Assembly: GCF_001942465.1 (NCBI RefSeq) | Contig: NZ_MKJY01000603.1 | Span: 1 to 64,000 of the forward strand | DNA length: 64,000 bases | Reading direction: 5' to 3' | From: Actinomadura sp. CNU-125 | Lineage (GTDB): Bacteria > Actinomycetota > Actinomycetes > Streptosporangiales > Streptosporangiaceae | Shown here: one piece after another, positions 37,945 to 54,455 of the stretch | How the letters are laid out: every line of letters begins with the position of its first letter | Numbering within the stretch: position 1 is the stretch's first letter | The notes under the pieces: generated by a model | Told to the model about the DNA's origin: nothing | Database searches by the model: none | Seen by the model: only the letters and a program-made list of their open reading frames with translations | Translations under genes and position numbers: made by a program

Positions 37945-38264
37945 GGTTGCCCGGGACGCTAATCCCGCTGTCCCGAAGGGTCAAGACCCCGTCGCGATCG
38001 GCGCCGGACGCACGGCTCGACCAGTGCAGGTCGAATGCCGAACCGGTGAAGTGGCGTCCGCGAATATGTGAATTGCTGATAATCGGTCGAATGATCGATT
38101 GGCGATATGTGCCTGATTTCGCCGCGCCGCTTGCCGGTGCCGTCCGGCCGAGCGGGGCGCGGCGGGACGACCGGTCGGCGCGCTTCATCCCGGCTGCCTG
38201 CGGAGACCGAGGCTCGGGTGCTCTTGCACTCTGTCGGAACCGTGCGTATCTGGAGCCTTCGCCC
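37945..38264. other. Non-coding stretch upstream of the chitin operon
   Basis: No convincing gene. The part 38050-38110 is AT-rich (with several GAT/ATC words) and may hold a distal promoter. Open frames here have no ribosome binding site or recognisable sequence. Confidence 0.4.
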
Positions 38265-43842: not shown

Positions 43843-44172
43843 TCAGCCGGACGCGGCGGCGTCGCGTTCGACGACGAGTTCCATGAGGAGCATCCGCGCG
43901 GGCGGGTCCGTCCGGGCGGTGTCCGACAGGTGCATGGTGCCGTCGCTCGCGGCGTCCCGGAGCCGTTTCATGGCGGCCTTCGGGTCGCCCTCGATCTCGT
44001 AGTGGGCGATGTAGGTGTCGCCGTCGACGGGCGCGTAGCGGCGGGCGGAGACGATGCCCTCGATCGCCAGCATCTCGGGGATGTGCACCTCGTCGTACCA
44101 GCGGTTGTACTCGGCCGCGACGTCCGGGCCCGCGGGCCCGGACTCCACGTGCAGGATCGTCTTCTTCGGCAT
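43843..44172 (-). CDS. EthD-like dimeric alpha/beta-barrel protein, paralogue 1
   Basis: 109 aa: [60 protein letters not shown]. The [14 protein letters not shown] pattern is that of ferredoxin-like, EthD/stress-responsive dimeric barrels. Closely similar to the next two genes; the three arose by tandem duplication. Role unknown (decarboxylation, cyclisation or ligand binding occur in the fold). Confidence 0.83.
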   Translation of the reverse strand: MPKKTILHVESGPAGPDVAAEYNRWYDEVHIPEMLAIEGIVSARRYAPVDGDTYIAHYEIEGDPKAAMKRLRDAASDGTMHLSDTARTDPPARMLLMELVVERDAAASG

Positions 44173-44213
44173 GCGCGTTCTCCCATCGGTCGTCCCGACC
44201 GGATGGTATACGT

Positions 44214-44241
44214 GCTCTCGAAGATTGAGAACGATGTTCTC
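44214..44241 (-). promoter_or_regulatory. Operator-like element upstream of paralogue 1
   Basis: GCTCTC-N7-GAGAAC (44214-44232) is followed by a perfect palindrome GAGAAC-GAT-GTTCTC (44227-44241). The same GTTCTC-N7-GAGAA pattern recurs upstream of paralogue 3 at the same distance from a GGTATAC box. Confidence 0.65.
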
Positions 44242-44246
44242 GGAGG

Positions 44247-44567
44247 CTAGTCCGCGATCTCCTTGATGAGCTCGAAGACGTGCATCTGCGGCGGCGGGTC
44301 CATCTGGATGGTGTCCGAAAGGGCCACCGTGCCGTCGCCCATGGCCGTGTTCAGCCGCTTCACGGCCGCCTTGGCGTCGCCTTCGATCTCGTACACCGCG
44401 ACGTAGGGGTCGCCGTCCTTGGTGGGGCCGTAGCGGCGGGCGGAGACGAAACCGTCGAGCGCCAGGACCTCCGGCATGTGGACGTCCTCGTACCAGCGGT
44501 TGTACTCGGCCGCGGTCTCCGGGCTCGACGGACGGGTCATGACGTGCAGGATGGACTTCGCAGACAT
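44247..44567 (-). CDS. EthD-like dimeric alpha/beta-barrel protein, paralogue 2
   Basis: 106 aa: AKSILHVMTRPSSPETAAEY, NRWYEDVHMPEVLALDGFVS, ARRYGPTKDGDPYVAVYEIE. About 60% identical to paralogues 1 and 3 by eye. ATG 44567. Its upstream region has a GATGCTATAGGTACGG box but lacks the GTTCTC operator of the other two, so it may be read from the promoter of paralogue 3 or regulated differently. Confidence 0.83.
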   Translation of the reverse strand: MSAKSILHVMTRPSSPETAAEYNRWYEDVHMPEVLALDGFVSARRYGPTKDGDPYVAVYEIEGDAKAAVKRLNTAMGDGTVALSDTIQMDPPPQMHVFELIKEIAD

Positions 44568-44646
44568 GCGTGTTCTCCAATCGCGATGGCTCCGACCGGA
44601 TGCTATAGGTACGGAAAATCCCGGTTCCGGCCGGTGGCGGGGCGGG

Positions 44647-44973
44647 TCAGTCCGAGGCGCCGATCTCCTTGACCTGCTGCATGAGCAGCATCCGCGGCGG
44701 CGGGTCCAGCCGGAGCGTGTCCGACATGTGCAGGGTGCCGTCGCCCGCGGCCCTGCTCAGCCGCGGGACGGCCTCGTCCGGATCGCCCTCGAACTCGTAC
44801 TGCGCGATGTAGGGCCCTTCCCCGTCGACGGGCGCGAAACGGCGGGCCGCGACGAATCCTTCGACGGTGAGCACCTCGCGGAGATGGACCTCGTCGTACC
44901 AGCGGTTGAACTCCTCGACCGCGTCCGGACGGGACGGGTACGACTCGACCTGCAGGACCGTTCTCTTCGGCAT
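44647..44973 (-). CDS. EthD-like dimeric alpha/beta-barrel protein, paralogue 3
   Basis: 108 aa: [60 protein letters not shown]. Divergent ([18 protein letters not shown]) from the other two mainly at the C-terminus. ATG 44973. Preceded by GTTCTC-N7-GAGAAT at 45014-45032 and a GGTATAC box. Confidence 0.83.
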
Positions 44974-45958: not shown

Positions 45959-46533
45959 CCCACCTCTACCGGCTGGCGGGCGATGAACCGGCCCCGCTCG
46001 TCCCGTCCGGCGGCCCGGTGGACGCGGGCGTGCTGCGCCTGCTGGACGTGATCGGCCCGGTCCCCGCCTACGTGACCAACGGCCGGCTGGACGTGCTGGC
46101 CTGGAACCCGATGGCGGCGGCGCTCCTTCCCGGGATCGCCGAGCTGCCGGAGGGCCGGCGCAACATGCTGCGGTTCACCCTGTGCGACCCGCGCGCCCGC
46201 GACTTCTACCTCGACTGGGAGGGCGTGACCCGGCACGGAATCGCGCAGCTCCGGACGGCGACCGGCCGCGATCCCGGCGATCCGGCGAACGAGGCGCTGA
46301 TCCGGGAGCTGGCCGGGGCGAGCCCGCGGTTCGGCGAGTGGTGGGAGCGGCAGGACGTGAAGGGGCCGGGCATCGGCCGCAAGGAGTACCGGCATCCGGT
46401 CGCCGGGCGGCTCTCGCTCGACTACGTGGGGATGGTGCTGCCGGGGACGGTGGACCACCGGTTCGTGACGCTGACGGCCGCGGAGGGCAGCCCGTCCCAG
46501 GCGGCCCTGGACAAGCTGGCGGCCGGTCTCTGA
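45952..46533 (+). pseudogene. MmyB-like XRE regulator, N-terminal HTH deleted
   Basis: About 193 residues of the MmyB-like ligand-binding domain: [68 protein letters not shown] and [20 protein letters not shown]. The usual ~85-residue N-terminus with the XRE helix-turn-helix and the start codon are absent. Upstream of 45952 the DNA is the truncated aldo/keto reductase. The 7-bp word GAGCGCC at 45952-45958 fits both genes and marks the junction. Such regulators normally sit divergent from an aldo/keto reductase. Confidence 0.82.
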
Positions 46534-46573: not shown

Positions 46574-46588
46574 GATACGTTCCTTATC
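46574..46588. promoter_or_regulatory. Inverted-repeat operator, left end of the D-amino-acid locus
   Basis: GATACGTTCCTTATC: 4-bp GATA/TATC arms with 7 bp between. A near-identical 15-mer (13 of 15) lies at 53198, at the other end of the locus. A related palindrome GATACGTATC occurs at 46667-46676, right before the SIS gene start. Confidence 0.72.
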
Positions 46589-46600
46589 TAGTACGCCAGG

Positions 46601-46629
46601 TCGCACGTGAGATGCCTATTGACGTGCGA
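46601..46629. promoter_or_regulatory. Second inverted repeat before the SIS gene
   Basis: TCGCACGT (46601-46608) and ACGTGCGA (46622-46629) are perfect arms 13 nt apart. Binding partner unknown. Confidence 0.5.
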
Positions 46630-46677
46630 TCAATCGCGCTGCTAGAAACTTGCATCGTCAACATAAGATACGTATCC

Positions 46678-47364
46678 ATGGACGGAAGTGATCGCTTGCC
46701 CGACGCTGGACCGGACCGGGAAGCGACGGAGAACCGCCGGCTGAGCAGCCCGGACGCCCGTTACGGCGCGCGGCTGCGCCGCAAGTCGACGGCACTGCTG
46801 CTGCTGGACGCGATCATCGAGGCCGAGACCGCCAACCTGGAGCGCACCCTGACCGCGCTGCGGGCCGACGGTTCGCTGGAGCGGGCGGCCGGCCAGATCG
46901 TCGCGGCGCGGCGCCGCTTCATCATCGGCAGCGCGAAGAGCCGCGCGCACGCCACGCTGCTGCACCTGGAGCTGTCGGCGAGCCTCTCCGGGGTCGCCCT
47001 GATCGATGAGGCCGCGGTGCGGGCCATCGACGTGCTCAGCGACGTCCGCCCGACGGACGTGCTGGTCGCGTTCTCCTTCCGCCGCTACGCCCGGCAGACC
47101 GGCACGGTCGCGCGGGAGTTCGCCGCCGCGGGCGGCCACGTCGTGGCCGTCACCGACGACGCCGACAGCCCGCTCGCCGCCGCCGCGGGCACCACGGTCG
47201 TGGTCAGCACGGGGAGCGCGTCCTACAGCGACTCGCCGACGGCGATCTCCGCCGTCGTGCACGCGCTGGCGACGCTGACCGCCGCGAGCGCGAAGGGGGC
47301 GCGGCGGCGGCTGGCCCGGCGCGAGGACCTCGCGCACGCCCTGGACATCTACTCCGACGAATGA
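46678..47364 (+). CDS. SIS-domain protein (RpiR/MurR-like sensor without the N-terminal HTH)
   Basis: 228 aa. The SIS fold is clear: RFIIGSAKSRAHATLLHLEL, then DVLVAFSFRRYARQTGTVAR, then GGHVVAVTDDADSPLAAAAG. RpiR regulators carry an ~80-residue HTH before it; here only a short helical linker (KSTALLLLDAIIEAETANLE) is present. It may therefore sense a sugar phosphate or related ligand without binding DNA itself, or be a truncated regulator. ATG 46678 lacks a Shine-Dalgarno site. Eight base pairs separate it from the deacylase gene; first gene of the operon. Confidence 0.78.
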   Translation: MDGSDRLPDAGPDREATENRRLSSPDARYGARLRRKSTALLLLDAIIEAETANLERTLTALRADGSLERAAGQIVAARRRFIIGSAKSRAHATLLHLELSASLSGVALIDEAAVRAIDVLSDVRPTDVLVAFSFRRYARQTGTVAREFAAAGGHVVAVTDDADSPLAAAAGTTVVVSTGSASYSDSPTAISAVVHALATLTAASAKGARRRLARREDLAHALDIYSDE

Positions 47365-47371
47365 GTGGCGC

Positions 47372-48964
47372 ATGAACGATGTGATCATCCGCGGCGGCGA
47401 CGTGCTGGACGGTACGGGCGCCCCCGCGCGTCCCGCCGACGTCGTCGTGCGCGACGGAGAGATCGCCGAGATCGCCCCGCGCGCCGCCCGCGACCGCGAC
47501 GCCCGCCCCCGCGACGGCGAGGTGCTGGACGCCACGGGCCTGGTCGTCGCGCCCGGCTTCATCGACCTGCACTCGCACGCGGACTTCAGCGTCCAGGACC
47601 ATCCCGCCGCCGACACCGCCGTCCACCAGGGCGTGACCACGCTGCTCGGCGGCAACTGCGGGTTCTCCCCGTTCCCGGTCGCCGACGCGGCGGCGCTCGG
47701 CCGGGCCGCCGGGTTCCTCGCGTCCGGCCTGGACATCACCTGGACGGACCTGGACGGCTACGCCGCCGCCGTCGAACAGGACCCGCCCGCGATCAACATG
47801 GCCGTCCAGGTCGGCCACCAGGCGCTGCGGATGGCGGCCGTCGGCGCGGACGAGCGCCCCGCCACCGCCGCCGAACTGGACCGGATGCGCGGGCTGCTGT
47901 CCGAGGCCGCCGCGCAGGGCGCCTTCGGCTTCTCCACCGGCCTGATCTACGCGCCCGGCAGCTTCGCGCCGTCCGACGAGGTCGCCGCGCTGGCGACGGA
48001 GGCGGCCGCGCACGGGCTCCTGTACTCCACGCACATGCGGGACGAGACGGGCGGGCTGCTCGCGGCCGTCGCCGAGGCCCTCGACACGGCGCGGCGGTCC
48101 GGCGTCCGCCTGGAGATCTCGCACCTCAAGGCGATGGGCCCGGCCAACCACGGATCGGTGCGCGCGGCGCTCGCCGCGATCGAGGACGCCCGCGCCGGGG
48201 GCGTGGACGTGACCGCCGACGTCTACCCGTACACGGCGTCGTCGACGACCCTGACGTCCCGGCTGCCCGGCTGGGCCATGGACGGCGGCCCCTCCCGGCT
48301 GCTCGAACGCCTGATGGAACGTTCCACCCGGACCCGGATCGCGAGCCGGCTGCGCGCGCGTTTCGGCGACGACATCGACCCCGCGGGCGTCGTCGTGGCG
48401 TCGCTGCCGGACGGCCCCTACTCCCGGTTCGTCGGCCGCGACCTGATCGCGATCGGCGCCGAACTCGGCATGGACCCGGCGGAGGCGGCGCTGGAACTGC
48501 TCGCCGCCCACCGCGCCACCGTGTCGATCGTCAACCACGCGATGGCGCCGCAGGACGTCGCGACCGTTCTGGCCCACCCGCTGGTGAGCGTCGCCAGCGA
48601 CGGCTGGACGCTGCGTCCGTCCGGGGCGGGCCGCCCCCACCCGCGCAGCTTCGGCACGTTCGCCCGCGTCCTCGGCCGGTACGCGCGCGAGGACGGGCTG
48701 CTCGCGCTGCCCGAGGCGGTGCGGAAGATGACCTCGCTGCCCGCGTCCCGGCTGGGCCTGGCGGACCGCGGCGCGATCCGCTCCGGCCTGGTCGCCGACC
48801 TCGCCGTGTTCGACCCGGACACGGTGCTCGACCGGTCCGATTTCGCGGACCCGTGGCGGCTCGCCACGGGCGTGCGGCACGTGCTCGTGCGCGGCGTTCC
48901 CGTGCTGCGCGACGGCACGGCCACCGGCGCGCGCCCCGGGCGCGTCCTTCGCCGGAGCTCATGA
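47372..48964 (+). CDS. N-acyl-D-amino-acid deacylase (D-aminoacylase)
   Basis: 530 aa amidohydrolase-superfamily enzyme. The metal site begins at GFIDLHSHADFS (HxH), then the conserved GNCGFSPFPV with Cys, EISHLKAMGP (His), VYPYTASSTTL and VASDGWTLRPSG (Asp). It hydrolyses N-acyl-D-amino acids to free D-amino acids and a carboxylate. The operon position after an SIS sensor and before a transporter, and the racemase/deacylase genes nearby, fit D-amino acid salvage. No signal peptide: cytoplasmic. Confidence 0.92.
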   Translation: MNDVIIRGGDVLDGTGAPARPADVVVRDGEIAEIAPRAARDRDARPRDGEVLDATGLVVAPGFIDLHSHADFSVQDHPAADTAVHQGVTTLLGGNCGFSPFPVADAAALGRAAGFLASGLDITWTDLDGYAAAVEQDPPAINMAVQVGHQALRMAAVGADERPATAAELDRMRGLLSEAAAQGAFGFSTGLIYAPGSFAPSDEVAALATEAAAHGLLYSTHMRDETGGLLAAVAEALDTARRSGVRLEISHLKAMGPANHGSVRAALAAIEDARAGGVDVTADVYPYTASSTTLTSRLPGWAMDGGPSRLLERLMERSTRTRIASRLRARFGDDIDPAGVVVASLPDGPYSRFVGRDLIAIGAELGMDPAEAALELLAAHRATVSIVNHAMAPQDVATVLAHPLVSVASDGWTLRPSGAGRPHPRSFGTFARVLGRYAREDGLLALPEAVRKMTSLPASRLGLADRGAIRSGLVADLAVFDPDTVLDRSDFADPWRLATGVRHVLVRGVPVLRDGTATGARPGRVLRRSS

Positions 48965-49009
48965 CCGGGGTTCCCCCCCCGATCGAACCCTCGTTGAACA
49001 GGAGCGTCC

Positions 49010-50436
49010 TTGAGCAGCACCGAAACGCTCACCAGGCGGCGGCCGAGCCGCCGGCAGATCATCGCGACGGCGTGTTTCGCGATCAGCGTCGTGGCCGGCA
49101 TCGTGCTCGCGATCGCCGACGACAAGGCCGGGTTGTGGGGCCTCGTCCCGATCGTCCTGTACGCGGTGCTCGCCCTGCTCGGCGTCGACGTCGTGCTGGC
49201 CACCGTCGGCGCCGTGCTGGTCGTGGCGATCATGACGCGGACCGGGCCGGTACCGCTCGGCGAGCAGCTCGCGACGTCCATGGGCTCGCTGGTCGCGGTG
49301 ATCGGCCTGATCATCATGCTGGGCGCGGGCCTCGGCCGGGTCGCCCAGGAGACCGGCGCCGCCCCGATGCTCATCCGGATGGTGATGAGCCGGATCGGAC
49401 TGAACACCCCCACCCGCGTCCAGTTCGGCGTCATGGCGTCGTCGCTGGTCATCGTCGGCGCGCTCGGCACGCTCGCCGGCGGCAACGCGATCATCGCGCC
49501 GATCGTCATCCCGATCGCGGCACGGCTGGGCTGGCGCCCGCCCGCGGTCGCGGCGATGTTCCACGCGGCGGGCGCGGCCGGGCTGCTGATGGGCCCGTTC
49601 ACGCCGCCCGTCGTGACGATCACGGCCGCCGCCGACATCGGCTACGGCGACTACCTCCTGCACGCCGGGCTGCCGGTCGGCGCCGTCACGATCGGCACCG
49701 GATTCTTCATGGCCCGCTGGATCCAGCGGCACACCGACCAGGAGTACACGGAGGCCGACAAGGCCGGGGGCGACGACTTCGAGGACGGCTCCGAGCGGAA
49801 CGCCGGACGCGTCGCGGCCGGACGCCGCGCCGCGTTCGCGTTCGTCGGCGTCATGGCGGCGCTCGCCGCGTTCGGGGTGTGGCAGGAGGCCGGCTACTCC
49901 TACGCGCTGGTCGTCATGGTGGTCGCCGCGGCGGCGACGGGCCTGGCGGGCGCCTCGGCCCCAAGGGCACCGCCGAGGCCGTCTACGCGGGCGCGGCCCG
50001 GCTGATCTGGCTGTTCATGCTGTTCTGGCTGCTGGACCCGCTGCTGACGCTGGTGGAGAAGACCGGCGCGTTCGAGTCGATCTTCGAGACGATGAAGCCG
50101 ATCATGTCGGACGCCGGTCCGTACACGCTGCTGGTGCTGGTCGTGCTGATCGGCTACGTGCACGCGGTGCCGGGCGCGGCCGTCGCGCAGGTCGTGCTGA
50201 TCGACAAGCTGTTCGGCCCGCTGGTCGCCTCGCTCGGCATCCCGCCCGCCGCGTGGTCGGTCTCGCTGCTCGGCACCGCGCAGATCGACCAGCTCGGCCC
50301 CTACCCGACCGCCGACATGATGGGGCAGATGGGCCTGGCACGCTCCAGCGACCTGAGGATGATGCTGTTCAACGGCTGGGCCATCATGGCGGTCAACTCG
50401 GTCGGGTTCCTCGTCCTGTTCGCCGTCCTGCTCTAG
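49010..50436 (+). pseudogene. Ion-transporter-superfamily permease (importer candidate), one frameshift
   Basis: 475 aa after repair, about 11-12 hydrophobic segments with the pseudo-symmetric loops GNAIIAPIVIPIAARLGWRP and HAVPGAAVAQVVLIDKLFGP. It resembles NhaC/GntP/CitM-like carriers of organic acids; I cannot choose among them. The TTG start at 49010 has GGAG 5 nt upstream. One base is missing near 49955 (GLAG to RLGPKGTAEAVYAGA). Lying between the deacylase and the hydrolase, it probably imports the N-acylated or free amino acid substrate. Confidence 0.78.
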
Positions 50437-50448
50437 GGGGAGGGCTCC

Positions 50449-51225
50449 ATGCACGACGAACTGGACGAGCTCGCCCGCCGGGCGTCCGCGTCCGGCGGGC
50501 GCCTCGGCCTGGCCGTCCACGACCTCGGCACCGGGGAGCGTGCCGAGGTCGACGCCGGGCGGGTCTTCACCGCCGCGTCGGTGATCAAGCTGCCGATCAT
50601 GATGACGCTGCTGTCCGGCACGGAGGCCGGAACGTGGTCGCTGGACGACCGGCTGCCGCTCGCCCCGTCCCGCCGGGTCGGCGGGGCGGGCGTCGCCGCC
50701 GAACTGGCGGACGTGCCCGACCTCAGCGTCCGCGACCTGCTGACGCTGATGATCATCGTCAGCGACAACATGGCCACGAACCTGCTGATCGACCTGCTGG
50801 GCATGGACGCCGTGACGTCCTGGTGCGCCCGCCACGGCATGCCGCGGACCGTGCTGGCACGGTCCATGATGGACGCCGACGCGCGCGCCCGCGGGCACGA
50901 GAACCGCACCACCCCGGCGGACACGGCCGCCCTGCTCACCGGCCTCGCCCGCGGCGACCTGCTGGGCGAGCGGGCGACCGCGCACGCCCTGGAAGTGCTG
51001 ACCCGCCAGCAGACCGCCGACCGGCTGCCCCGCCACCTGCCCGGCGGCGTCCGGCTGGCCCACAAGACGGGTGAACTGGACGGCGTCCGCCACGACGCGG
51101 GGATCGTCCTCGCCGACGGCCGCGCGCCGATCGTCATCGTCGTGCTGACCGAGGGCTTCGCCGACGAAGACCACGCGGCCGACCTCGTCGCCGAGGCCGG
51201 CCGCGTGGTCTACACCGTTCTCTGA
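50449..51225 (+). CDS. Class A beta-lactamase-fold serine hydrolase, cytoplasmic
   Basis: 258 aa. The SxxK is S44-V-I-K47, the SDN is 105-107 and KTG is 206-208. The usual ExxLN loop with Glu166 is not visible, and there is no signal peptide. Relatives of this type act as D-amino-acid-specific amidases, esterases or DD-peptidase-like enzymes rather than secreted lactamases. The operon context (D-amino acids) supports a D-specific peptide or amide role. ATG 50449, 12 bp after the transporter, with AGGGGGAGG upstream. Confidence 0.85.
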   Translation: MHDELDELARRASASGGRLGLAVHDLGTGERAEVDAGRVFTAASVIKLPIMMTLLSGTEAGTWSLDDRLPLAPSRRVGGAGVAAELADVPDLSVRDLLTLMIIVSDNMATNLLIDLLGMDAVTSWCARHGMPRTVLARSMMDADARARGHENRTTPADTAALLTGLARGDLLGERATAHALEVLTRQQTADRLPRHLPGGVRLAHKTGELDGVRHDAGIVLADGRAPIVIVVLTEGFADEDHAADLVAEAGRVVYTVL

Positions 51226-52338
51226 TCAGACGCGGTACGTCTCGTCCGCCTCGGCGCGGACGAACTCCTCGTCCACCTCGTGGCCCAGCGCGGCGGCGGC
51301 GGGCACGTCGACCATGCCGTCCACCGCGCGGACGGGCGGGTCCACGACGTCGCGCGCGTAGTACTTGTCGGAGCCGGACACGTCGCTCGGCAGCTCGAAC
51401 CCCGGCAGCGACGCGATCGCGACGTTCGCGGCGCGGCCCACGCCGAACTCGTGCATGCCGCCGCACCACACCGTCCACCCGGCGGCCACCGCCCGGTCGT
51501 GCGCCGCGCGCGCGGCCGTCAGCCCGCCCATCCGCGACACCTTGATGTTCAGCACGCTCCCGGCGCCCAGCGTGACGGCGGTGTCGAGCTGGTCGAGGTC
51601 GTCGACCGACTCGTCCAGGCAGACGGGCGTCCCGACGGACTCCCGCAGCCGGGCGTGCGCCGCCAGCGCGCCGGGGCCGAACGGCTGCTCGATCAGCAGC
51701 AGCCCGAGGCCGTCCAGCTCCCGCATGACGGCCAGCGCGGCCGCGTCCTCCGGGTACACGCCGTTGGCGTCGACCTGCACCATCAGGTCCGGGTGCGCCT
51801 CCCGGACGGCGCGCACCGGCGCGACGTCCCAGCCCGGCGCGATCTTCAGCTTGATCCGCCGGTAGCCGTCCGCTACGTGCCGGTCGACCTGGGCCTTCAG
51901 CTCCTCGATCGTCGGCTCGATGCCGAGGCTCACCCCGGCGGCGATGCGGTCGCGGGTGCCGCCCAGCGCGTCCGCGAGCCGGGTGCCGGACGCGCGCGTC
52001 CACAGGTCCCAGCAGGCGATGTCGAGGCCCGCCTTCGCGAAGTTGTGGCCGCGGATCCGCGCCCACACCCGGCCCGCCTCGGACGGGTGCTCCCAGCGGG
52101 CGCCGACCAGGGCGGGCGCGAGGTAGCGGCGCAGCATCGCCCAGCAGGTGTCGACGGTCTCGGGGCAGTAGTACGGGTCGCTCGGCGAGGCGATCTCGCC
52201 CCATCCGGCCGTCCCGTCCTCGCCGGTCACCCGCACCAGGATGTGCTCCAGGTGCGACTTGCGGTGCGAGCTGGTCTGGAAGGCGTGGACGAGCGGCAGG
52301 CTGAGCCGGAACGCCTCGACGGAGGCCACGGTGGGCAT
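51226..52338 (-). CDS. N-acylamino-acid/N-succinylamino-acid racemase (OSBS-related enolase superfamily)
   Basis: 370 aa. Mechanistic residues of the family are in place: K163-L-K165, the Mg ligands D190, E217 and D242, and K266 on the opposite face (LNIKVSRMGG). It interconverts D- and L-N-acylamino acids; related proteins are bifunctional with o-succinylbenzoate synthase. In the absence of menaquinone genes here, and next to a GNAT and an M20 deacylase, racemase is the better call. ATG overlaps the GNAT stop (TGATG). It is convergent with the operon on the plus strand. Confidence 0.9.
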   Translation of the reverse strand: MPTVASVEAFRLSLPLVHAFQTSSHRKSHLEHILVRVTGEDGTAGWGEIASPSDPYYCPETVDTCWAMLRRYLAPALVGARWEHPSEAGRVWARIRGHNFAKAGLDIACWDLWTRASGTRLADALGGTRDRIAAGVSLGIEPTIEELKAQVDRHVADGYRRIKLKIAPGWDVAPVRAVREAHPDLMVQVDANGVYPEDAAALAVMRELDGLGLLLIEQPFGPGALAAHARLRESVGTPVCLDESVDDLDQLDTAVTLGAGSVLNIKVSRMGGLTAARAAHDRAVAAGWTVWCGGMHEFGVGRAANVAIASLPGFELPSDVSGSDKYYARDVVDPPVRAVDGMVDVPAAAALGHEVDEEFVRAEADETYRV

Positions 52339-53174
52339 CAGTTCTCCTCGCGGGGGACGGAGCCGGGGACGGGACCGGCGGCGGGATCGGCGGCGGGCGC
52401 GGGACCGGCGGCGGGGGCGGGGGCGAGCCGGTAGACGCCGGTGCGCCGTCCGCGAGCCGCACGACGTCGTCGCGCACCCGCGGCCGACGAGCGCGCCGAG
52501 CGTCGAGGCGACCCGCTCGCGCAGCGCGACGGAGGCGTCCCGGTCCTCGGCGACCAGCGCGTCCCAGTTCCCGGGCAGGCCGAACAGCAGGTCGTCGCCG
52601 TCGGGCGCGACCTCGCCCCACGCGACGGGCGGGGGCGTCTCGTGCCGGGCCGGAGCGCCCGCGGTCAGGTCCCATTCGACGATGAGGCGGTCGGTGCGCA
52701 TGCCCCGGTCGCGGCCGAGGTCCTCCACGCCCATCAGGTTGGGCACGAACCAGCGGGCCACCGCGCCGAGGACGTCGAGGTTGAAGTGCGCGTTGTGGGT
52801 CCGCACCGGGTCGAACGCCCAGCGCATGGCCGTCATCCCGGAGGCCAGGGCGTGGTCGCGCTGGCCGAGCTTGAGCGCCCGGCCGACGCCGCGGCCCTGC
52901 TGGTCGTCGCGGACGGCGGCCATCTGCGAGTAGAGGTAGCCGGCGCCGGACGCGTCGGCGCCGCGGAACCCGTAGGTGAATCCGACCAGGTCGTCCCCGT
53001 CGAAGGCGCCGACGCCGAGCCGCCGTTGCGGGTGAGCGAGACGAGCAGCCGGGGGCTGACCGCGGGGTCGGTCTCGTCGAGGCGGAAGACCTCGCGGTAC
53101 AGGCGTACGGCGGCCCGCATCTCGGCGGGGTCCGTCAGTGGCCGCACCTGGACGGCCGGGGCTTTGGAGGGCAT
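52338..53174 (-). pseudogene. GNAT family N-acetyltransferase (N-succinyltransferase candidate), three frameshifts
   Basis: 279 aa after repair. The acetyl-CoA signature is in YLYSQMAAVRDDQQGRGVGR, and the later WAFDPVRTHNAHFNLDVLGA region is typical of the long GNATs paired with N-acylamino-acid racemases. Single-base losses are needed near 53017 (SLTRNG to RLGVGAFDGDD), 52485 (VGRG to VRDDVVRLAD) and 52455 (ADG to TGVYRLAPAP). The N-terminal part starts at ATG 53174. In Geobacillus the equivalent enzyme succinylates D-amino acids for the racemase. The C-terminus has a Pro/Ala-rich tail. Confidence 0.8.
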
Positions 53175-53197
53175 CGCACCGCTTACTGTCTGACCTT

Positions 53198-53212
53198 GAT
53201 ATGTTCCGTATC
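53198..53212. promoter_or_regulatory. Inverted-repeat operator, right end of the D-amino-acid locus
   Basis: GATATGTTCCGTATC, matching 46574-46588 at 13 of 15 positions. It lies between the divergent GNAT (start 53174) and M20 (start 53306) genes and can control both arms. Confidence 0.72.
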
Positions 53213-53305
53213 TACGCCCCTGTTTCTAGCATTTTGCCTAGTTAGCGTCAACTAAAGCGGGTACGGGGGCAGTTATACGATTCGTAAGTTTGTTCACGGA
53301 GGATC

Positions 53306-54455
53306 ATGGCCACGCTCACGCCCGAGACCGCCGCCCGCATCGCCGAGGCCGCCGCCGCGCAACTGGACGAGGGCCGGGCGCGCCTGCGCGCCTACGCGCT
53401 GGCCGAGTCCCCGAGCGGCGACGCCGCCGCGCTGGCCCGCTGCGCCGATCTCGTCGCGGCCGGGCAGGAGGCCGCCGGGGGCCGGGTGCGGCGCGTCCCG
53501 TCCCCGGCCGTGACCACCTGGTCGCGTCCTTCGGGCCGGACGGCGGCGGGCACCTGCTGTTCGTCGGCCACTACGACACCGTGTGGCCGGTCGGCCGCCT
53601 CGCCGAGATGCCCTACACCGACGACGGGACGACCATCACCGGGCCGGGCGTCCTCGACATGAAGGGCGGCCTGGTCGCCCTGGAGATGGCGCTGCGCGCG
53701 CTGGACGCCGCGGGCGTCGCGGTGCCGGTCCCGGTGCGCGCGGTCGTGGTGGCCGACGAGGAGGTCGGCAGCCCCACCGGACGCGCGGTCGTCGAGGACG
53801 AGGCGGCCGGCGCGGCCGCCGTGCTCGGGCTGGAGTCGCCGCACCCCGACGGCGACCGTCAAGTCCGCGCGGCGCGGCAGCACCCGCGTCGCGCTGCGGG
53901 TCCGCGGCCGGGAGGCGCACGCCGCGCTCGACCCGGAGAACGGCGTCTCCGCGATCGACGAGCTGCTCGACCAGCTCGCCGCCGTCCGCGCGGCCGTCCC
54001 CGGGGACGGGACGACGCTGTGCAACGTCGGTCCGCGTCGAGGGCGGGACGCGGGCGAACGTCGTCGCGGGGGAGGCGTGCGCGGAGATCGGCCTGCGGTT
54101 CACCGACGCGGCCGCCGAACGCCGGATGCTCGGCGTGCTGCGCGACCTGCGCCCCGTCCGGGACGGCGCGACGGTCGAGGCCGAGGTGCTGACGTCCCGT
54201 CCGACCTGGCAGGAGGACCCGGATTCCCCGCTCCTGGCGCGCCTCGCCGAGCTGGGCGCCGCTCTGGGGCAGGACGTGCGCGGACGTCACCGCGGCGGCG
54301 CGGGCGACGCGAACCTGCCCGGTTCGCGCGGCCTGCCGACCCTCGACGGGCTCGGCCCCCGCGGCCGCGGGGCGCACGCTCCCGACGAGCACGTCCTCGT
54401 CGCGTCCCTGCCCGAACGCGCCGCCCTCCTCGCCGCGTTCATCGCCTCCTCCTGA
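53306..54455 (+). pseudogene. M20 family metallopeptidase (glutamate carboxypeptidase/desuccinylase-like), three frameshifts
   Basis: About 382 aa after repair. Zinc ligands are in FVGHYDTVWP (HxD), GPGVLDMKGG (Asp) and VVADEEVGS (Glu-Glu, catalytic Glu first), with a dimerisation domain beginning REAHAALDPENG. The C-terminus (GLPTLDGLGPRGRGAHAPDE) completes the metal site with the last His. One base is missing near 53512; extra bases lie near 53857 and 54031. With the racemase and GNAT next door, an L-specific N-acyl (succinyl) amino acid deacylase is likely. ATG 53306 follows GGAGG. Confidence 0.8.

Follow-up and report, generated by a model that had tools for sequence, protein, structure and literature searches.

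Genes of the locus

The DNA analysed here, called the window below, is a stretch of 64,000 nucleotides from Actinomadura sp. CNU-125 (contig NZ_MKJY01000603.1, positions 1 to 64,000), the genome of which comprises 9,956,240 bases in 603 contigs. It contains a locus of seven genes which, from left to right, encode a SIS-domain protein, an amidohydrolase, a transporter and a serine hydrolase of the Beta-lactamase2 fold on the forward strand, a racemase and a GNAT-type acyltransferase on the reverse strand and an M20 deacylase on the forward strand. The coordinates of these genes and of their predicted promoters and operators are given in Table 1. All seven genes were found, with the order kept, in three relatives (L054, L056 and L060). 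As judged from the sequence, the locus is rather likely to be one regulon of facing transcription units which would salvage N-acyl- and free D-amino acids.

The racemase has the N- and C-terminal MR_MLE domains. Its nearest solved structures are N-acylamino-acid and N-succinylamino-acid racemases (2ggg, 279.9 bits, E 2.8e-82), and the Amycolatopsis racemase 1sja matches it at E 3e-78. The blocks IKLKIAPGWD, VDANG, IEQPF, LDES, NIKVSRMGGL and WCGGMHEFGVGRA align with the N-acylamino-acid racemase (NAAAR) of Deinococcus, and the protein has the features of the N-succinylamino-acid racemase/o-succinylbenzoate synthase (NSAR/OSBS) type, i.e. paired lysines (KxK and NxK), the DAN, IEQP and DES motifs and GGMxExGxGRA. 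We take these residues to have the catalytic-lysine and metal-ligand roles that they have in NSAR enzymes. An orthologue in a second genome (G030) is 85 % identical.

The amidohydrolase gave 297 bits against the N-acyl-D-glutamate deacylase 3gip and 285 bits against the D-aminoacylase 1m7j, with the metal-site blocks aligned. Its HxH, GNCG, THMRDE, SHxK and SDG blocks aligned with those of 1m7j, while 3gip differs at THMRDE; the residues presumably have the metal-site roles of D-aminoacylase. The amidohydrolase of the window is related to the two solved enzymes by family and metal-site blocks but exceeds them in length (530 aa) and does not align over a segment from residue 296 to 348. The serine hydrolase carries the SVIK, SDN and KTG motifs, no signal peptide was apparent by eye, and its score with the NCBIfam class A beta-lactamase model bla_class_A (142.4 bits) was below the cut-off of 200. 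The M20 protein of a relative contains the Peptidase_M20 and M20_dimer domains. In A. violacea (L056), from which the intact gene copies were read, the M20 protein stayed under every NCBIfam cut-off among the 25 best matches listed, and the GNAT protein had no NCBIfam match. GNAT was present in 79 and M20 in 74 of 81 loci, the window included.

The window copy shows a frame change in the transporter gene at about 49,945 (tblastn of the A. violacea protein against the window), and at least one in the GNAT gene at about 53,014; the M20 gene has three, at about 53,510, 53,865 and 54,030 (A. violacea proteins aligned to the window). The first-pass annotation had described the gene set as including a long GNAT and an M20 deacylase; all seven families are indeed present, but this assembly holds no intact frame for either of these two. 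It is conceivable that the frame changes in the three genes mark a decaying pseudogene cluster, but we consider this very improbable: the frames of the SIS protein, deacylase, hydrolase and racemase are open, the operators are intact, the A. violacea copies are open, and the assembly has a completeness of just 88.45 %, compared to 90-100 % for the other genomes of the genus examined. As two aminoacyl-tRNA synthetase genes of the same assembly (contigs C315 and C124) also look split across two frames, assembly indels are the likeliest cause.

Operators and promoters in the window

In the first-pass annotation a 15-bp element was placed at 46,574 and 53,198, and both copies proved to be exact. 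The element, GATAYGTTCCKTATC, occurs exactly at two places in the 9.96 Mb genome, both of them in this locus. When up to two mismatches were allowed, eight places were found (two with none, none with one and six with two), compared to four for the reversed control. No related genes were seen by eye at the six places with two mismatches (L003-L008). In the window itself, four matches with at most three mismatches were obtained, against a mean of 0.91 in shuffled sequence, and four were reached in none of 100 shuffles. Besides the two exact copies, these matches comprise a second site of the SIS promoter (46,662-46,676) and one at 38,104, a long way from the locus. The two exact copies cannot sensibly be put down to chance.

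The pattern scored in the following was the core ATACG-N3-CGTAT of the full palindrome GATACG-N3-CGTATC. Four sites in the window, here called O1 to O4, are within one core mismatch, two in each promoter region. The claim that two operators cover two divergent promoter regions was thus right in that both regions have sites, but there are four of them and the one at 53,198 (O3) is the least conserved. In O1, GATACGTTnCnTATC is invariant across eight aligned Actinomadura promoters, and the site has one core mismatch in all seven relatives. O2 lies 19 bases ahead of the SIS start codon and has one core mismatch in six of the seven relatives and two in L054. O3 lies 23 bases ahead of the GNAT start codon. 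O4 is a conserved block with zero or one core mismatch in seven of seven relatives, and is the conserved site of the GNAT/M20 intergenic region. O1 and O2 are 88 bases apart in the window, compared to 122-124 in those relatives for which the distance was measured, and O3 and O4 are 75-76 bases apart. TTGACG and TGCTA of the putative SIS promoter are invariant in eight sequences. The GNAT-racemase promoter has the same core, and its TTGACGCT and ATGCTA blocks are invariant in seven sequences. The earlier proposal of one regulon is well supported by this conservation, more by the sites at 46,574, 46,662 and 53,274 than by that at 53,198.

Table 1 Genes, putative promoters and operator sites of the locus (positions in the window)
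Feature	Position	Strand	Remarks
Operator O1, GATACGTTCCTTATC	46574..46588		exact 15-mer match; upstream of SIS promoter
Putative SIS-deacylase-transporter-hydrolase promoter	46619..46648	+	TTGACG (46619-46624), 18 bases, TAGAAA (46643-46648), read from sequence
Operator O2, CATAAGATACGTATC	46662..46676		between -10 box and SIS start; 3 mismatches to 15-mer, 1 core mismatch
SIS-domain protein, 222 aa	46696..47364	+	PF01380; HTH-less RpiR effector domain; start codon TTG
N-acyl-D-amino-acid deacylase family amidohydrolase, D-aminoacylase-like	47372..48964	+	PF07969
Carboxylate-type transporter, CitMHS/DctM/DcuC superfamily	49010..50436	+	family matches; one frameshift near 49940-49951
Beta-lactamase2-fold serine hydrolase	50449..51225	+	PF13354, 232.1 bits
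N-acylamino-acid/N-succinylamino-acid racemase, NSAR/OSBS-type, enolase superfamily	51226..52338	-	PDB 2ggg, TIGR01928
GNAT-type acyltransferase	52339..53174	-	frameshifted near 53014, 3' end uncertain; 262 aa in A. violacea
Operator O3, GATATGTTCCGTATC	53198..53212		exact 15-mer match; between GNAT -10 box and start codon
Putative GNAT-racemase promoter	53223..53251	-	TTGACG (53251-53246), 17 bases, TAGAAA (53228-53223), read from sequence
Operator O4, TATACGATTCGTAAG	53274..53288		17 bases before M20 start codon; 1 core mismatch
M20 peptidase-family deacylase	53306..54455	+	three frame changes; 385 aa intact in A. violacea

The operator in related loci

For comparison, 80 named loci were gathered solely by similarity to the racemase, the top 80 of 248 being taken. 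A GNAT start was located in 78 of them, using four queries of which one was out of frame and was taken as adding nothing, and the operator counts rest on these 78. The two loci dropped (L093 and L116, GNAT not located) both have the SIS gene, and L093 has two sites. The region scanned was 350 bases upstream of the GNAT start and 40 bases into the gene.

In 58 of the 78 loci the operator core occurred upstream of GNAT with no more than one mismatch, and in 31 it was perfect. Shuffled regions gave a mean of 0.52 and a maximum of three loci of 78 over 100 rounds, and the reversed pattern was found in no locus at one mismatch or less and in 5/78 at two. The density of the operator near GNAT was 135-fold that of the rest of the loci. 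A symmetrised profile of 67 sites, the window included, read A(A/T)(G/C/T)ATACG-N3-CGTAT and its mirror. In 20 genomes, mostly picked for a seen site and thus informative on where sites are located and not on their prevalence among genomes, 19 of 29 perfect palindromes were at racemase loci (coordinates compared by hand).

The SIS gene was present within the examined locus piece in 68 of the 80 loci, usually between GNAT and the racemase. The operator was found in 58 of 68 loci with a SIS gene in the genome or locus, compared to none of nine without (Fisher p 5.7e-7). These 68 loci include L097 and L111, whose SIS gene is about 12 kb off; L126, whose SIS copy is elsewhere and has one TGA in the match, was kept out of the comparison. 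Absence of the SIS gene was judged on the locus piece alone for L062, L068 and L069 and by whole-genome search for L063, L064, L065, L067, L070 and L101. Two Leifsonia genomes with the operator lacked the SIS gene in the locus piece and had it about 12 kb away. In Leifsonia sp. Root227 (L164, 9046-12618) the SIS gene, about 12 kb from the racemase, is beside genes of the pyridoxal-phosphate (PLP)-dependent decarboxylase and Beta-lactamase2 families. The SIS copy of Nesterenkonia ebinurensis (L166, 7049-7720) is off the racemase locus, near dihydroorotase-like and hydantoin-racemase-like genes (by eye); its match holds one TGA, and the racemase locus of this species shows no site.

In four loci without the SIS gene a MocR-type regulator gene adjoins M20 (L062, 281-1699; L064, 6588-8024; L065, 6593-8011; L069, 1493-2923). 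These MocR/PdxR-type GntR-aminotransferase proteins, for which both domains were shown in L064, neighbour the same enzyme trio as in the window, but unlike in the window no GATACG operator and no SIS gene were found there. This looks like regulator replacement.

The SIS protein

The first-pass annotation had suggested an SIS sensor. The protein has an RpiR-type effector domain, which agrees with this, but no DNA-binding domain, and its likely start is the TTG codon at 46,696, chosen by comparison with relatives, and not 46,612, where the open reading frame itself opens. The AlphaFold model has a mean pLDDT of 88.6. According to Foldseek, the nearest solved fold is the RpiR SIS domain 3sho (E 1.7e-12), followed by RccR and thereafter NanR and MurR. 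The protein is encoded in 9 of 65 genomes searched in the genus, that of the window included.

In just four of the 68 SIS loci, a profile built from these four detected an additional N-terminal domain, about 76 residues long: L071 of Actinorhabdospora, L072 of Phytomonospora, L073 of Nakamurella and L132 of Streptomyces adustus. Pfam does not recognise this domain. In the high-confidence AlphaFold model of the L072 protein it consists of five helices, and the model matched full-length NanR and RccR over most of its length with high root mean square deviation (rmsd), a pattern that a hinge would give. Residues outside 88-270 were barely tested in this VIA-align comparison, in which only a few matches reach the helix-turn-helix (HTH) domain (8txl_B, Z 20.7, 263 residues aligned, rmsd 11.1; 8ju9, Z 20.6, 256 aligned, rmsd 14.1). 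In a single hhalign comparison the N-terminal domain was collinear with an RpiR HTH profile, which contains one wrong-frame row (L181), over 71 columns (probability 85 %, E 6e-6); the reversed control had a probability of 0.1 %. On the profile comparison and, for L072, the model, the extra domain of these four proteins is a divergent HTH_6 domain, and the SIS gene is an RpiR relative whose DNA-binding domain is gone in most loci. When the SIS tree was rooted with RpiR proteins, its base was unresolved and long branches met. Without them, the four HTH-carrying copies grouped with the HTH-less L066 (94/89, not starred).

Candidate readers of the operator

As the SIS protein of the window lacks a DNA-binding domain, it cannot simply be a classical repressor. 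An RpiR partner acting in trans was rejected as universal reader of the operator: PF01418 proteins were present in 10 of the 13 genomes searched, and nothing was found at E<=0.001 in G102, G114 and G115, the sites of which are imperfect but within one core mismatch. A regulator gene carrying its own operator was likewise rejected, as nine of ten off-locus perfect palindromes (all but G091:C21) were inspected by eye and no gene was shared between genomes. Two of the nine are near TetR-type genes (by eye). In Cellulomonas (G103, L157 at about 3033) and in a genome of the genus Actinomadura (G027, L158 at about 2994), a perfect copy of ATACG-N3-CGTAT is placed between what by eye is a TetR-type regulator gene and a divergent gene, with no relation to the racemase locus.

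Somewhat short of an even chance, in our estimate, is that an unlinked transcription factor outside the RpiR family reads the operator, with the SIS protein acting as co-sensor, either anti-repressor or co-repressor, or being an enzyme-like passenger. The scarcity of the HTH domain among the SIS loci is consistent with this, and so is the absence of HTH_6 proteins in the three genomes mentioned above. A stand-alone copy of the divergent HTH was not found at E<0.01 in 14 of 15 genomes, where the matches were at 0.012 or weaker (in genomes of at least 6.5 Mb, 150 first-look candidates were scored); only G089, which has a full-length protein, matched strongly (E 1.4e-34). Furthermore, besides racemase, M20, GNAT and SIS, no clustered family of called genes occurred in more than 24 loci. 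However, no such factor was identified, the nine inspected palindromes share no regulator gene, the geometry of the site is that of an RpiR operator and the site tracks the SIS gene.

Another explanation is direct binding of the operator by the SIS protein, by means of a conserved basic N-terminal stretch, SPxxR[YF]xAR...RxSSA, the HTH having been lost and the site kept. Among 56 SIS proteins R22 of this stretch is invariant and P19 nearly so, the site is confined to loci with SIS in the comparison above (58/68 and 0/9), and in Actinomadura the SIS gene is itself under O1 and O2. Yet in the full-length copies this stretch joins the HTH to the SIS domain, which is another possible reason for its conservation. 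Residues 1-30 have low AlphaFold confidence (block means 52-70) with no DNA-binding fold, L126 lacks a site although a SIS gene is present elsewhere, and no precedent was found in the literature searched. We therefore regard direct binding as decidedly unlikely. In a broader scenario, the HTH of an RpiR regulator was lost in actinobacteria, on one or a few occasions, and the operator was kept under selection in several families as SIS still acts on it, either via the short and basic arm at its N-terminus or together with an unrelated DNA-binding protein of which it is the obligate partner; this we consider unlikely, though a little less so.

Proposed function

In the regulon proposed here, unit A (SIS protein, D-aminoacylase, transporter and serine hydrolase) would probably serve to import N-acyl-D-amino acids or related carboxylates and to release free D-amino acids. 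By unit B (GNAT and racemase) and the divergent M20 enzyme, the D-amino acid would probably be acylated, the N-acyl derivative racemised and its L form hydrolysed to give the L-amino acid. As the positions of the sites suggest, a bound protein should repress the genes: O2 and O3 each follow a -10 box and precede the start codon, and O4 is 17 bases ahead of the start of M20. The SIS protein, with its RpiR effector domain, would most likely sense an acyl-amino acid of the pathway or another anion and control occupancy of the sites. We infer the substrates, the direction of regulation and the ligand, and likewise the succinyl intermediates and the irreversible D-to-L conversion of the first-pass annotation.

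The genes in front of the enzyme core differ between lineages. Counted within 8 kb of the racemase from clusters of called genes, which makes the numbers lower bounds, and with one representative per family checked with Pfam, the D-aminoacylase cluster was present in 20 and the transporter cluster in 22 of the 80 loci. Eleven Microbacteriaceae loci carry an M19 dipeptidase instead, seven of them with a class-C-type hydrolase in addition. Twelve loci encode a peptide-binding protein and ten an ABC permease; Streptomyces L132 belongs to both groups. That such varied front ends, which could release D-amino acids, are attached to a common racemase-GNAT-M20 core agrees better with salvage of D-amino acids than with the other explanations considered. 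The D-amino-acid reading of the earlier annotation is supported by the family membership of the racemase and the amidohydrolase and by these lineage-specific front ends. In Microbacterium (L079, 12039-13862), an M19 membrane dipeptidase fused with a class-I glutamine amidotransferase domain in one 607-aa frame was noted beside the racemase cluster, an unusual pairing.

Alternatively, the locus might degrade N-acyl amino acids or peptides with D-residues, of both configurations, for nitrogen, the racemase acting on N-acetyl and not N-succinyl compounds and GNAT having another role. A D-aminoacylase and an M20 deacylase would together cover both enantiomers, the M19 dipeptidase and peptide ABC genes of the Microbacteriaceae loci would suit such a function, and parts of PMC7431475 and PMC8142540 describe NSAR enzymes as promiscuous for N-acyl groups. 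The near-universal presence of GNAT (79/81 loci), however, is hard to explain without N-acylation, and we look on this alternative as possible but somewhat doubtful.

Several observations weigh against D-amino-acid salvage under one operator. The racemase also clears the o-succinylbenzoate synthase model TIGR01928 (286 bits, cut-off 200.65), and G000 has a second racemase copy, 46 % identical. The A. violacea GNAT scored 19.8 bits with Acetyltransf_1, under the Pfam cut-off of 20.7, and the transporter, GNAT and M20 genes of the window are frameshifted. The RpiR-type operator has no visible reader: Pfam found SIS but no HTH in the window copy, seven HTH-less copies having been checked, and an HTH was found in 4/68 SIS loci. 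Even of these, L073 and L132 lack a site at two mismatches or less. A site with at most one mismatch is missing from ten SIS loci, seven of which have one within two, and L126 has a SIS gene elsewhere and no site at its racemase locus. The loci without SIS are mostly of one clade (Actinoallomurus and close kin), so that the association of site and SIS represents few independent events. Finally, O3 is degenerate, with three or four core mismatches in seven of seven Actinomadura relatives and mainly the AACATAT half kept. As O4 is conserved in the same region, the weakness of O3 leaves the probability of the regulon unchanged.

Comparison with known systems

A route of NSAR, succinyltransferase and N-succinyl-L-amino-acid hydrolase was reportedly described in Geobacillus kaustophilus by Sakai and co-workers in 2006. 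The present locus resembles it, by gene families, in that an NSAR/OSBS-type racemase is clustered with GNAT and M20. It differs in being actinobacterial and in having in addition the D-aminoacylase-transporter-serine hydrolase unit, the HTH-less RpiR-type SIS protein and the conserved operators. Passages of PMC7431475 deal with a tandem of NSAR and L-succinylase and with the use of this racemase family in amino-acid production.

RccR, a member of the RpiR family, binds TGTAGT-N3-ACTACA, a 15-bp site of 6-3-6 geometry, two copies of which are 68 bp apart at aceE, as stated in a section of PMC5489143. The operators described here share with that account a 15-bp palindrome, 6-bp half-sites, a 3-bp spacer and occurrence in two copies, and the likeness is one of geometry only. 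By structure comparison, the SIS fold is common to the protein of the window and to RccR and NanR (PMC5489143 and PMC12713135). Unlike in these two regulators, the HTH is missing here, the half-site is GATACG and not TGTAGT as for RccR, and the neighbouring genes encode amino-acid and not sugar enzymes.

Outside the locus, an aldo/keto reductase gene (reverse strand) and a gene of an MmyB-type regulator with an MLTR_LBD domain (forward strand) meet at 45960-45985 of the window, both seemingly without their N-terminal parts (by eye), as if a few hundred bases were gone, by a real deletion or by assembly collapse. At 43843-44570 and 44650-44960 on the reverse strand there is a tandem array of three similar small open frames, each encoding about 100 aa with the pattern NRWYxxVHxxEVLxxxGFVxARRxxP..., which appear to be paralogues belonging to one family (by eye).

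Concluding remarks

The enzyme core of the locus is of a known kind. What is new is the combination and its regulatory anatomy, of which the relative of RpiR without an HTH, together with a persistent RpiR-type operator, most deserves attention. In the open-licence literature searched, no description was found of this gene cluster in actinobacteria, of its operator or of an RpiR protein devoid of an HTH, which is weak evidence of novelty. A compact regulon with a predicted operator makes the natural role of the racemase family in these bacteria testable. Several families of actinobacteria have retained the RpiR-type operator next to a gene for an RpiR relative that lacks a DNA-binding domain. 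Should the SIS protein still act on operator DNA, this would be a new mode of regulation by a sugar-isomerase-type sensor, here for D-amino-acid salvage.

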